A stretch of 37,324 bases of DNA, taken from assembly GCA_027315255.1 (NCBI GenBank), contig DAHUYL010000168.1, positions 1-37,324 on the forward strand, in the 5' to 3' direction. The notes under the pieces were generated by a model. The model ran no database searches. It saw only the letters and a program-made list of their open reading frames with translations, and had not been told where the DNA came from. Source of the DNA: Solirubrobacterales bacterium (lineage in GTDB: Bacteria > Actinomycetota > Thermoleophilia > Solirubrobacterales > Solirubrobacteraceae). The stretch's first letter is position 1. Each line of letters opens with the position of its first letter. Both the position numbers and the translations under genes were made by a program. Positions 25,867-31,102 of the stretch are shown here, one piece after another.

Positions 25867-27669
25867 ATGACTGCTTTCACCGGACAGCACGCCGCGGAGC
25901 CGATTCACAAAGGTCCCGCTTCCGGCTTGGCTCCCAACTTGGAGGACTACGATCTTGCCCGGTCGCAGTTCTCGTGGGCCAGCGCACGGGCCGAGCTGGC
26001 AGGCCTGCCCGGCGACGCTCTCAACATCGCCTACGAGGCGGTCGACCGTCAAGCCGACGGGCCGCTGGCCGACACGGTGGCGTTGCGGTTTCTCGACCTG
26101 GGCGGGGTTGCGGCCGAGCTCACCTATGCGCAGCTGAAACGGGCGACCAGCCGCTTCGCGGGCGTGCTCGAGCAACTCGGCGTCGCGCGCGGGGAGCGGG
26201 TCTTCGTTCTCGCCGGTCGGATTCCCGAGCTGTACGTAGCCGCGCTGGGAACGCTCAGGCACGGAAGCGTGTTCTGCCCGCTGTTCTCCGCATTCGGCCC
26301 TGAGCCGATCGAACAGCGGTTGAGGCTCGGAGACGCGCGCGTGCTGGTCACCACGGTGACGCTGTACACGCGCCGGGTGGCCGGGCTCCGGCCACGGCTC
26401 CCAGGGCTGGCTCACGTGCTGTTGATCGGCAGCGATGCGGAGATCGAAGCACTGCCGGGCACCGACGATCTGCGTGCGTTGATGGATCGCGCCCCGGATC
26501 ACCGCGAACCGGCCGCGACCGCTCCCGAGGACATGGCGTGTCTGCATTTCACGAGCGGCACCACCGGCGAGCCGAAGGGCGCCGTCCACGTCCACGAAGC
26601 GGTCGTCGGGCACCGAGCGACGGGCCGCATGGTGCTCGATCTTCACCCCGGCGACATCTTCTGGTGCACGGCGGACCCCGGTTGGGTCACCGGCACCTCC
26701 TACGGGATCATCGCGCCCCTGACGATCGGCGCCACATGCGTCGTCGACGAGGCCGAGTTGGCTGTCGATCGCTGGTACGGGATCCTCCAGGACCAGCACG
26801 TGACGGTCTGGTACACCGCTCCCACCGCCCTGCGGATGCTGATGCGGGCCGGTGCCGAGGTCGCGCACGAGTACGACCTGAGTGCGCTGCGGTTCGTCGC
26901 CAGCGTGGGTGAGCCGCTCAACCCGGAAGTCGTCCACTGGGGCCAGGAAGCCTTCGGACTTCCCGTCCACGACAACTGGTGGCAGACCGAGACCGGTGGG
27001 ATCATGATCGCCAACTATCGGTCGATGGACGTTCGGCCCGGGTCGATGGGCCGGCCCCTGCCGGGCGTCGAAGCGGACGTGTGCCGCCGCGATGCAGACG
27101 ACAAGCCGCTGCTCGCGACGGACGGGAGCCTGGAGCTCGCGTCAGAAGGCGAGCAGGGCGAGCTCGTGCTTCGGCCCGGCTGGCCATCGATGTTCCGCGC
27201 CTACCTCGGCGATCCGGTCAGGTACTCCGAGCGCTTCGTGGGCGGCTGGTACCTGACCGGCGATCTGGTGCGCCGGGATGCCGACGGCTACTTCTGGTTC
27301 ATCGGGCGCGGCAACGACGTGATCAAGTCCTCCGGTCACTTGATCGGACCGTTCGAGGTCGAGAGCGCGCTGCTCGAGCACGAGGCGATCGGCGAGGCCG
27401 GCGTGATCGGCAAGCCGGACCCGGTCGCGGGCGAGATCGTCAAGGCGTTCGTCCTGCTCAATCCCGGCTTCGAGCCCGATGAGGAGCTCCGGCGCGACAT
27501 CCTCGCGTTCTCGCGCCGGCGGCTCGGCGCGGCCGTCGCACCCCGCGAGATCGACTTCGTCGACGTTGTGCCGCGCAACCGGAGCGGGAAGATCATGCGC
27601 CGGGTGCTGAAGGCGCGCGAGCTCGGGCTTCCGGAAGGCGACCTCTCGACGATGGAGCCGGGGTCGTGA
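25867..27669 (+). CDS. acsA: AMP-forming acetyl-CoA synthetase
   Basis: Activates acetate to acetyl-CoA through acetyl-AMP. Seen: adenylation motif [14 protein letters not shown] in the middle, [10 protein letters not shown] with the Trp that limits the pocket to acetate-sized acids, [27 protein letters not shown] (hinge), and the C-terminal [11 protein letters not shown] with catalytic K575, the site of regulatory acetylation in the family. 600 residues, AcsA-like. The ATG follows an AAGGGAG site; the frame is open further upstream but lacks family sequence. Its stop overlaps the next gene (GTGA), so it heads the pdh-like operon. Propionate is a possible second substrate. Confidence 0.92.
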
Positions 27670-28646
27670 TCGTCGGGCCGGATCGCGAGCACGGACTGCA
27701 CCTGCTGGCGCAGATGCTGCGCATCCGACGTTTCGAGGAGAAATGCGTCGAGCTGTACAGCGCGACCAAGATCCGGGGTTTCCTGCACCTGTACATCGGC
27801 GAGGAGGCGGTCGCCGTCGGGACGATCGAGGCGCTGCTGCCAGACGACGCAGTCGTCGCCACATACCGCGAACACGGGCACGCTCTGGTTCGTGGTGTAC
27901 CAACCGAGGCGCTGATGGCGGAGATGTACGGGAAGCTCGAGGGTTGCTCGCGCGGACGCGGCGGGTCGATGCACCTGTTCGACGCCGCCACTCGGTTCTA
28001 CGGCGGCAACGCGATCGTCGGCGGTGGGCTGCCGCTGGCGCTCGGGCTCGCGCTGGCCGACAAGCTGGAGGGGCGCGAGCGGGTCACCGCGTGCTTCTTC
28101 GGCGACGGTGCAGTCGCCGAGGGCGAGTTCCACGAATGCATGAACCTGGCAGCGCTGTGGAGCTTGCCGGTCATGTTCTTCTGCGAGAACAACCGCTACG
28201 CGATGGGCACCGCGATCGAGCGCTACGAGTCGGAGACCGACCTCGCGCTGAAGGCGGCAAGCTACGAGATGACCTCCTGGTCGGTGGACGGGATGGATGT
28301 GCTCGCAGTCGAAGCTGCCGCGCGCAAGGCGGTCGCGGAGGTGCGCGACGGGTCGCGGCCGTGCTTCCTCGAGCTGAAGACGTACCGCTTCCGCGCGCAC
28401 TCGATGTACGACCCCGATCTGTACCGGACCAAGGACGAGATCGAGCGCTACCGCCAGCACGATCCGATCCCCGCGCTCCAGCGCCGACTCGAGGCGGACG
28501 GCAGCCTGAGCGCGTCCGACATCGAGCAGATCGAGCGGTCCGTCGCCGAGGAGATCGAGCGCGCCGTCGCATTCGCGGAGGCCGGCACGCTCGAGCCCGT
28601 CGAGGAACTCGAGCGATTCGTCTACTGGGAGGGATCGCTCGCATGA
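27666..28646 (+). CDS. pdhA: Pyruvate-dehydrogenase-type E1 component, alpha subunit
   Basis: Thiamine-diphosphate subunit of a 2-oxoacid dehydrogenase. Seen: [11 protein letters not shown] at 17-27, GEEAVAVG at 45-52, TYREHGHAL at 66-74, and the ThDP motif [12 protein letters not shown] running to ENN at 146-176, then RYAMGT. The 'YAMGT' and overall pattern resemble alpha-proteobacterial/cyanobacterial PdhA; acetoin or branched-chain substrates cannot be excluded. 326 residues. Start GTG overlaps the acs stop (GTGA); its own stop overlaps the beta gene (ATGA). Confidence 0.9.
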
Positions 28647-29650: not shown

Positions 29651-30845
29651 GTTCGTGATGCCGTCGCTGGGCGCCGACATGGACTCGGGCACCCTGCTCG
29701 AATGGTTCGTCAAGCCCGGCGACGAGGTCAAGCGCGGCGACATCGTGGCGCTCGTCGACACGAGCAAGGCTGAGATCGAAGTCGAGATCTTCGAGGACGG
29801 GGTGATCGACGAGCTGATCGTGGCGCCCGGCACGCGCGTGCCCGTTGGTGCCGTACTGGCGACGGTCGGTACCGCGGGCGCCCCGCCGGCGCCCGCCGCA
29901 GCAACCCCACCGGCGCCCGCCGCAGCAACCCCAACGGCACCGGCCCCACCGGCGCCCCCCGCACCGCCCACGGCAGCGCCGCCGGCGATCGCGGTGGACG
30001 GGCACCGTGTCCGCGTGTCGCCGCTCGCCAGGCGGGTGGCGCAGCAGCTCGGCGTCGACCTGGCGGCGGTGACCGGAACCGGGTTCGAGGGGGCGATCAC
30101 GCGGGCTGACATCGAACACGCGGTCGCGGTCGCGAGCCCTCCGGCACCGCCGGTGCCGGCAGCTCCCGAAGTCGCGCATCGCCAGGAAGCGATGCGCCAG
30201 GCGATCGCCGTGCTGATGGCACGATCCAAGCGCGAGATCCCCCATTACTACCTCGAGCTGCAGATCGACATGAGCCGGCCGCTCGAGTGGCTGCGCGAGG
30301 AGAATCTGCGACGACCGGTGACGAAGCGCCTGCTGCCGGCAGCGCTGCTGTTGAGCGCGGTTGCGCACGCGGTCGTGGAGATGCCGGAGATGAACGGCTT
30401 CTGGGTCGACGATGCGTTTCATCCAGGCGGCCGCGTCCACCTGGGGGTGGCGACCTCGCTGCGCAGCGGCGGCCTGATCGCGCCGGCGCTGCACGACGCC
30501 GATCGGATGAGCCTCGAAGAGCTGATGGCGGGGACGCAGGACCTCGTCCAGCGTGCACGGGCGGGCAGGCTCCGCAGTTCGGAGATGTCGGACCCGACGA
30601 TCACCGTGACGAACCTCGGCGACCGCGGCGTCGATCTCGTGCACGGCGTGATCTACCCGCCGCAGGTTGCGCTGGTGGGCTTCGGCGCGGTCCGCGAGCG
30701 GCCCTGGGCGGTCAACGGACTCCTGGGCGTCAGGCCCGTCGTGACGGCGACGCTCGCCGCCGACCACCGGGCAAGTGACGGCCATGCGGGCGGCCGCTTC
30801 CTGGCGATCATCGAGCGGAAACTCAACACACCGGAGGAGCTATGA
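29643..30845 (+). CDS. pdhC: Dihydrolipoamide acyltransferase (E2)
   Basis: Core of the complex; takes the acyl group from E1 on a lipoyl arm to CoA. Domains: lipoyl domain 1-76 with lipoylated K42 in DTSKAEIE; Ala/Pro-rich linker 79-118 containing a duplicated 8-residue unit; peripheral-subunit-binding domain 122-161 ([15 protein letters not shown]); second linker; catalytic domain from about 178 with the active-site HRASDG (H375, D379). 400 residues, single lipoyl domain. Start GTG lies 8 bases inside the beta gene. The motif has HRASDG rather than the usual HRxIDG, a mild variation. No E3 gene follows. Confidence 0.93.
29886..29933 (+). repeat. 24-bp exact tandem repeat in the E2 linker
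   Basis: Two identical 24-bp units (29886-29909 and 29910-29933) encode PAPAAATP twice within the flexible Ala/Pro linker. In frame, so copy-number change would alter linker length without breaking the gene. Confidence 0.9.
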
Positions 30846-31102
30846 CCGAGCAGGAACTGCGCGAGGCGGTGATCGCCGCGCTGACGCAGGTCGCACCCGA
30901 CATCGACCCGGCCGCGATCGACCCCACGATCGGGCTGGCCGAGCAGCTCGACATCGACTCGATGGACTTCCTTAACGTGGTCGTGGCGATTCACGAGCGC
31001 ACCGGGATCGAAGTTCCGGAGCGGGACTACCCGAAGCTGTCGACGCTCGATCAAGCGGTCGGATATCTGGCCGCCGCCCAGACGCAGCACGCCCCCAGCT
31101 GA
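30842..31102 (+). CDS. Acyl carrier protein in the pdh-like operon
   Basis: 86-residue carrier. Seen: helix 1 EQELREAVIAALTQVAP, then DIDSMDFLNVV with phosphopantetheine-accepting Ser40 (a DSMDF variant of DSL), helix 2 following it, and a C-terminal STLDQAVGYLAA helix. Its ATG overlaps the E2 stop (ATGA), so it is the fifth cistron of the acs-pdh operon, not near any fatty-acid or polyketide gene. The aromatic after Ser-Met-Asp and the context suggest a dedicated carrier that may exchange acyl groups with E2 or the synthetase; that is inference. Confidence 0.92.
   Translation: MTEQELREAVIAALTQVAPDIDPAAIDPTIGLAEQLDIDSMDFLNVVVAIHERTGIEVPERDYPKLSTLDQAVGYLAAAQTQHAPS

Follow-up and report, generated by a model that had tools for sequence, protein, structure and literature searches.

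A conserved five-gene module pairs a pyruvate dehydrogenase-type complex with its own acyl carrier protein, a possible acetyl acceptor

Textbook 2-oxoacid dehydrogenases pass their acyl group to coenzyme A (CoA). Loading of a carrier protein has been described in biosynthetic gene clusters: according to the excerpts considered here, QncN/QncL/QncM of the quinocarcin cluster and SclQ1-4 of the scleric acid cluster, which comprise E1/E2-like proteins and an acyl carrier protein (ACP), make an ACP-bound glycolyl unit (PMC6335953), and NapB/NapC/NapD carry out the corresponding C2 loading in the naphthyridinomycin cluster (PMC7570522); these sources describe the step as glycolyl/hydroxyethyl loading (PMC6335953, PMC7570522). 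Here we analysed a 37,324-nt stretch of DNA from a Solirubrobacterales bacterium (assembly GCA_027315255.1, contig DAHUYL010000168.1, positions 1-37,324, forward strand; hereafter the window), in which five overlapping genes at 25867-31102 (+) encode an acetyl-CoA synthetase (acsA), pyruvate dehydrogenase (PDH) subunits E1-alpha and E1-beta, a dihydrolipoamide acyltransferase (E2) and an ACP. As in the excerpted accounts of QncN/L/M, a thiamine diphosphate (E1-like) component, a lipoyl and acyltransferase (E2-like) component and a small stand-alone ACP are encoded together; that a two-carbon unit ends on the ACP is a feature of the Qnc, Scl and Nap systems. Those routes, however, start from a ketose phosphate and belong to antibiotic assembly lines, whereas the module has a pyruvate-type E1 and carries AcsA in the operon, a comparison made by gene content and description rather than by sequence. 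In the annotated plasmid neighbourhoods of the module we saw stress and central-metabolism genes listed, but no assembly line. E1/E2-type loading of an ACP has its nearest precedent in Qnc.

Two further systems resemble the module in part. With mitochondrial and alpha-proteobacterial PDH (pdhA-pdhB-pdhC) it shares the E1-alpha and E1-beta families, the E2 domain order lipoyl, subunit binding, catalytic, and an E3 encoded elsewhere, but it adds an ACP and AcsA, and its E2 falls below the curated PDH-E2 cut-offs and bears signature residues of its own. In Ralstonia, the acetoin dehydrogenase operon acoABC has a neighbouring acetyl-CoA synthetase gene, acoE, so that acetate activation likewise stands beside an E1-alpha/E1-beta/E2 set; the module differs in having an ACP, of which we know no example in aco operons. 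Acetoin dehydrogenase was rejected as an identity for the module, because its E1-alpha scores above the pyruvate dehydrogenase equivalog TIGR03182, which we take to separate pyruvate from acetoin dehydrogenases, and its E2 reaches no more than 76 bits, against a cut-off of 307, on the acetoin E2 model.

We consider it about as probable as its opposite (roughly 0.5) that the five genes form a conserved module whose E2 hands acetyl groups derived from pyruvate to its own holo-ACP, with a shared E3 and with AcsA feeding in acetate. In this scheme E1 would decarboxylate pyruvate and load acetyl onto the lipoyl arm that E2 carries, the remodelled catalytic domain of E2 would pass it on to the phosphopantetheine thiol of the co-translated holo-ACP, either in place of CoA or alongside it, the shared E3 of the cell would reoxidise the dihydrolipoyl group, and AcsA would bring free acetate into the same acetyl pool. 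The scheme upholds part of an earlier note on this DNA, which had proposed acyl transfer from E2 or the synthetase to the carrier or, alternatively, an ACP-bound 2-oxoacid as substrate.

First, the arrangement is widespread. A scan of genome contigs with the ACP yielded 20 loci, and E2 lies directly upstream in 18 of them; the two exceptions are L055, whose sequence opens at a contig end, and L056, where a lone ACP occurs in a genome that carries the module elsewhere. The loci come from metagenome-assembled genomes labelled Solirubrobacteraceae, Thermoleophilia, Planctomycetota, Actinomycetes, Deltaproteobacteria, Chloroflexota, Dehalococcoidia, Rhodocyclaceae, Gemmatimonadetes, Manganitrophus (presumably Nitrospirota), Gammaproteobacteria and Acidimicrobiia. 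A survey of the class found the ACP clade in 9 of 249 genomes (E < 3e-29; next match 1.4e-14), with E2 adjoining in all nine, and a sample of the family found it in 8 of 61 (E < 1e-14), again with E2 adjoining in each. Searching plasmids with the E2 catalytic domain returned 31 records at E values up to 1e-35, of which 21 were scored; all five genes were present in 20 of these 21 loci. The plasmid carriers include Methylocystis rosea, Sinorhizobium fredii, Cupriavidus, Burkholderia savannae, Rhodococcus, Sulfitobacter, Streptomyces, Leisingera and Tropicibacter, among others. The order acsA, E1-alpha, E1-beta, E2, ACP on one strand within 6.5 kb was kept in 30/30 complete loci. E2 and ACP overlap by 4 nt in 30/30 loci compared at this junction, some of which are close relatives or come from the same genome, as well as in 18 of the 20 plasmid loci that include the ACP gene. 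With E2 directly upstream in so many contig loci and the full set in nearly all plasmid loci, the arrangement is not due to chance; the earlier note had called for a survey of ACP genes beside E2 (pdhC) and had made its idea depend on their linkage, which proved strong. The five proteins also diverge together: across 29 complete loci, pairwise distances correlate for all ten protein pairs (r 0.55-0.83; 0/2000 permutations for each).

The only scored plasmid locus without an ACP (L179, Sinorhizobium sojae) is also devoid of E1, and its E2 has neither the lipoyl lysine nor the HxxxDG aspartate, so that carrier and catalytic parts are missing together. This orphan E2 (L179:7461-8618) is followed by a universal-stress-like gene. 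In five Roseobacteraceae loci (L093, L095, L098, L125 and L181), E1-alpha and E1-beta are joined in one gene. The module is sporadic within relatives and broad across phyla, a pattern that lateral transfer would produce; judged by this distribution rather than by a species-tree test, it has probably spread laterally.

Second, the first three genes encode enzymes of ordinary type. AcsA (600 aa, 25867-27669, +), with AMP-binding and AMP-binding_C domains, scores 878 bits on the acetate--CoA ligase model NF003313 (cut-off 729). E1-alpha (326 aa, 27666-28646, +), joined to acsA by a GTGA overlap, scores 454 bits on the pyruvate dehydrogenase E1-alpha model TIGR03182 (cut-off 393.85), and the translation of E1-beta (335 aa, 28643-29650, +), which follows through an ATGA overlap, scores 396 bits on NF006667 (cut-off 321). 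All three thus exceed curated NCBIfam cut-offs. The E1-alpha subunits of four modules (window, L042, L088 and L092) were tested, and all four lie above the TIGR03182 cut-off. The nearest solved relatives of E1-alpha are mitochondrial PDH E1-alpha proteins.

Third, E2 (400 aa, 29643-30845, +; 8-nt overlap with E1-beta) has the parts expected of a PDH complex. Its Biotin_lipoyl, E3_binding and 2-oxoacid_dh domains all lie above Pfam cut-offs; they include the lipoyl lysine Lys42 in DTSKAEIE (codon 29766-29768, +), the peripheral E1/E3 subunit-binding domain at residues 123-158 (30009-30116, +; PF02817, 49.7 bits, cut-off 23.7) and the catalytic His375 in HRASDG (codon 30765-30767, +). Among module E2s, the lipoyl lysine is present in all 34 that reach the column, the catalytic His in 37/37 and the HxxxDG aspartate in 34/37.

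Within this intact frame the module E2s carry a signature. We compared 37 module E2s, defined by at least 42% identity to the window E2, with 26 others (25 from the genomes sampled here and one mammalian); 33 duplicate or cut-short loci had been set aside beforehand, although one of them, L060, was retained. Position 217 (Leu in the window, codon 30291-30293, +) is L/I/V in 37/37 module E2s and R/K in 26/26 others. Arg274, in the motif SLRxGGL (codon 30462-30464, +), occurs in 37/37 against 0/26, and an inserted residue in 37/37 against 2/26. Leu217 and Arg274 are also found in all of five shortened module E2s outside the comparison; the window's genome encodes two other E2s, both with Arg at 217. 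The neighbouring Arg218 of the window E2 is unrelated to the signature and is not conserved. By these residues the module E2 is specifically remodelled. Loss of CoA binding is not claimed, although position 217 discriminates perfectly: Arg229, which we take to align with the basic residue (lysine) of chloramphenicol acetyltransferase that binds the CoA 3'-phosphate, argues the opposite way. We therefore read the signature as the mark of a distinct, conserved E2 group and not of a loss of CoA. On NCBIfam models, both E2 and ACP match their own families with no curated cut-off reached, in contrast to Pfam, where both exceed the cut-offs. Five of five module E2s score 193-251 bits on the curated PDH-E2 model TIGR01349 (cut-off 445), which is weak evidence of difference, because L007, an E2 of the same genome that lacks the signature, meets no curated cut-off either.

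Fourth, the ACP (86 aa, 30842-31102, +; PF00550, 32.9 bits, cut-off 20.8), which overlaps E2 by ATGA, belongs to a distinct clade. Its phosphopantetheine attachment site, Ser40 (codon 30959-30961, +), lies in DSMDF (DIDSMDF) and is invariant in an alignment of the window ACP with 24 relatives. An intact Ser40 on a stand-alone carrier, like the overlap of the five cistrons with junctions of -4, -4, -8 and -4 nt (GTGA, ATGA, 8 bp, ATGA), had been described in the earlier note, and the coordinates, overlaps and residue were all correct. The note had also seen in full replaceability by the housekeeping AcpP an argument against its idea; by sequence the two are unlike. They have the PP-binding fold and the DSx(D) serine motif in common, but the module ACP is without the acidic recognition helix: the net charge from Ser to Ser+15 averages -1.2 for the module clade (n = 25) and -4.85 for 26 others, which are presumed housekeeping ACPs mostly from the same class as the window. 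Ser+5 is Asn in 21/25 module-clade ACPs and Glu in 23/26 others; Ser+11 is Glu in 26/26 others, whereas the module clade mostly has His, Ala, Asn or Ser there. The best curated ACP model gives 39 bits against a cut-off of 84.

The genomes supply what the operon leaves out. In the window's genome (231 contigs, 4.3 Mb) we found five PP-binding matches, three E2 matches and four further E1-alpha relatives, and since E2 and E1-alpha thus have other relatives there, the module is an addition to other complexes. Five matches to the phosphopantetheinyl transferase family lie above cut-off, so the ACP could be made holo. One E3 lies above cut-off in the same genome, and E3 is encoded elsewhere in 12/12 genomes tested (TIGR01350 above cut-off). 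The operon is indeed without E3, as described earlier, but this is not an unusual trait, and we rejected the absence as a clue to function because all tested genomes have E3 elsewhere.

Several findings weigh against transfer of acetyl to the ACP. The 4-nt overlap of E2 and ACP is not universal: in two Rhodococcus plasmid loci the genes are separated by 9 and 12 nt, and L122, which is in neither overlap set, has a 1-nt overlap. Tight operons commonly show 4-nt overlaps, and no E2-ACP fusion was seen in the 30 loci compared at the junction and the plasmid loci examined. Arg229 is kept in 37/37 module E2s, and CoA may therefore still be the acceptor. Among the neighbours listed for the 20 contig loci, no conserved consumer of acetyl-ACP was seen beside the module. 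Same-clade ACPs occur without E2 (L111, L112, L114 and L056), as do more diverged ones in Rhodococcus (L123 and L124), and the ACP can therefore have other partners. The stress-gene surroundings described below pertain to annotated plasmids only and carry no statistical control, and no stress gene was seen among the identified window neighbours. An apparent E2-ACP fusion in L013, suspected from the length of an open frame, was rejected, because the two lie in different frames.

Much of this would suit the principal competing explanation, an ordinary auxiliary PDH that makes acetyl-CoA and in which the ACP is a coupled subunit for stability, regulation or sensing of the acyl state. Such a complex would account for the ordinary scores of E1-alpha, E1-beta and AcsA, the basic residue at 229 in every module E2, an E3 located elsewhere as for ordinary extra complexes, and the members of the ACP clade outside the module. 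It is opposed by the invariance of Ser40, for which a structural passenger would have no need, and by the signature of E2; we regard this explanation as rather improbable, though a serious one. We hold it to be quite unlikely that AcsA, or exchange via E2, charges the ACP with acetate, so that the ACP is an acetyl reservoir and pyruvate oxidation a parallel source. Some AMP-forming ligases are known to load carrier proteins, and acsA is the first module gene in 30/30 complete loci; yet AcsA scores as an ordinary acetate--CoA ligase, well above the cut-off given above, and the ACP gene is coupled to that of E2 and not to acsA. A role of the ACP as octanoyl donor in the lipoylation of its own E2 is very unlikely: octanoyl-ACP is the lipoate precursor and E2 requires lipoylation, but this ACP has no acidic helix, the feature recognised by fatty acid synthase enzymes, and lipA/lipB are not listed among the annotated plasmid neighbours, whose tables are incomplete. 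An ACP-bound 2-oxoacid as the substrate of the complex, the other idea of the earlier note, is scarcely credible, as no point in its favour was found and E1-alpha is an ordinary pyruvate-type subunit, both by the equivalog in the four modules tested and by its mitochondrial relatives.

The plasmid copies offer a possible setting for the proposed transfer of acetyl from E2 to its ACP. Of the 12 annotated plasmid loci that carry the module, 11 have a Usp (universal stress protein) or Hsp20 gene in the fetched stretch, the exception being Tropicibacter. Some of these loci also carry genes for DUF2267, phosphoenolpyruvate (PEP) synthase, phosphofructokinase-like kinases, Lon/FtsH, P-type ATPases, nitroreductase, response regulators and sensor kinases. 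Across 46 loci, which include some without the module (for example, L119, L123 and L124) and differ in flank length, homologues of one PEP synthase/pyruvate phosphate dikinase (PPDK) were found in 12 and those of one P-type ATPase in 10. Barring these two groups, no neighbour conserved beyond the five genes was seen among those listed for the 20 contig loci and the window. The plasmid-copy context bears some resemblance to the OsdR/DevR regulons and to the low-oxygen lxa locus in Burkholderia cenocepacia, as far as excerpts describe them (PMC6127331, PMC9104464, PMC3759415, PMC5069765); the excerpts of this lxa and OsdR literature do not name the module, and no account of it was recognised in the literature listings consulted. 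In Rhodococcus qingshengii, a universal stress protein fused to a GNAT domain is encoded upstream of the module (L096:3588-5096).

Given the stress genes, and in some cases PEP/pyruvate genes, in the vicinity of the annotated plasmid copies, we propose that the module may serve acetyl metabolism under energy limitation, low oxygen or dormancy. The recurrence of the same compact five-gene set in many unrelated bacteria, often near stress genes, suggests that a protein carrier may receive acetyl groups, and not CoA alone. A bolder version, which we put forward tentatively and think somewhat unlikely, has acetyl-ACP as the natural product of this PDH, forming from pyruvate a CoA-independent acetyl pool that would be used in acetylation or to prime lipids and would belong to the stress or low-oxygen islands of many phyla; a same-clade ACP translationally coupled to a GNAT gene (L111/L119) and ACP-ligase-acyltransferase fusions near some modules are hints in that direction. 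Were transfer to the ACP confirmed, primary metabolism would have a route from pyruvate to protein-bound acetyl, perhaps a second acetyl currency in stress, and the presence of the module in cultured bacteria (for example, Sinorhizobium fredii, Methylocystis rosea and Rhodococcus sp. DK17) makes it directly testable.

Last, we note further occurrences of the carrier, without E2, and the surroundings of the window locus. A same-clade ACP gene in a Rhodocyclaceae genome that also carries the module overlaps a GNAT acetyltransferase gene by GTGA (L119:8824-9614, L111), and the pair sits in an Hsp20/Lon/P-type ATPase island. The lone ACP of L056 lies near an ADP-forming acyl-CoA synthetase with a GNAT domain, and the more diverged ACPs of Rhodococcus lie in Hsp20/ClpB islands. 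In two Planctomycete genomes (L120 and L121), same-clade ACPs stand beside a ketosynthase, identified in L121 by eye and not by scan; L121 also has an FAD oxidoreductase. These occurrences suggest that same-clade ACPs are acyl carriers for more than one enzyme. Large fusions of PP-binding, AMP-ligase and acyltransferase parts (L055:4238-7114, L090:4046-6862, L179:9792-12701 and L089:20794-23076) are encoded in the vicinity of the module, of a same-clade ACP or of an E2 remnant. As neighbours in the window we identified a V/A-type ATPase cluster, a lytic transglycosylase and coaE. The panD and panB genes (9556-10866) and coaE (31915-32532), for pantothenate/CoA synthesis, share the window with the ACP. 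The V/A-type ATPase genes (18613-25196) adjoin the module, and the same neighbour recurs in another arrangement in L040.

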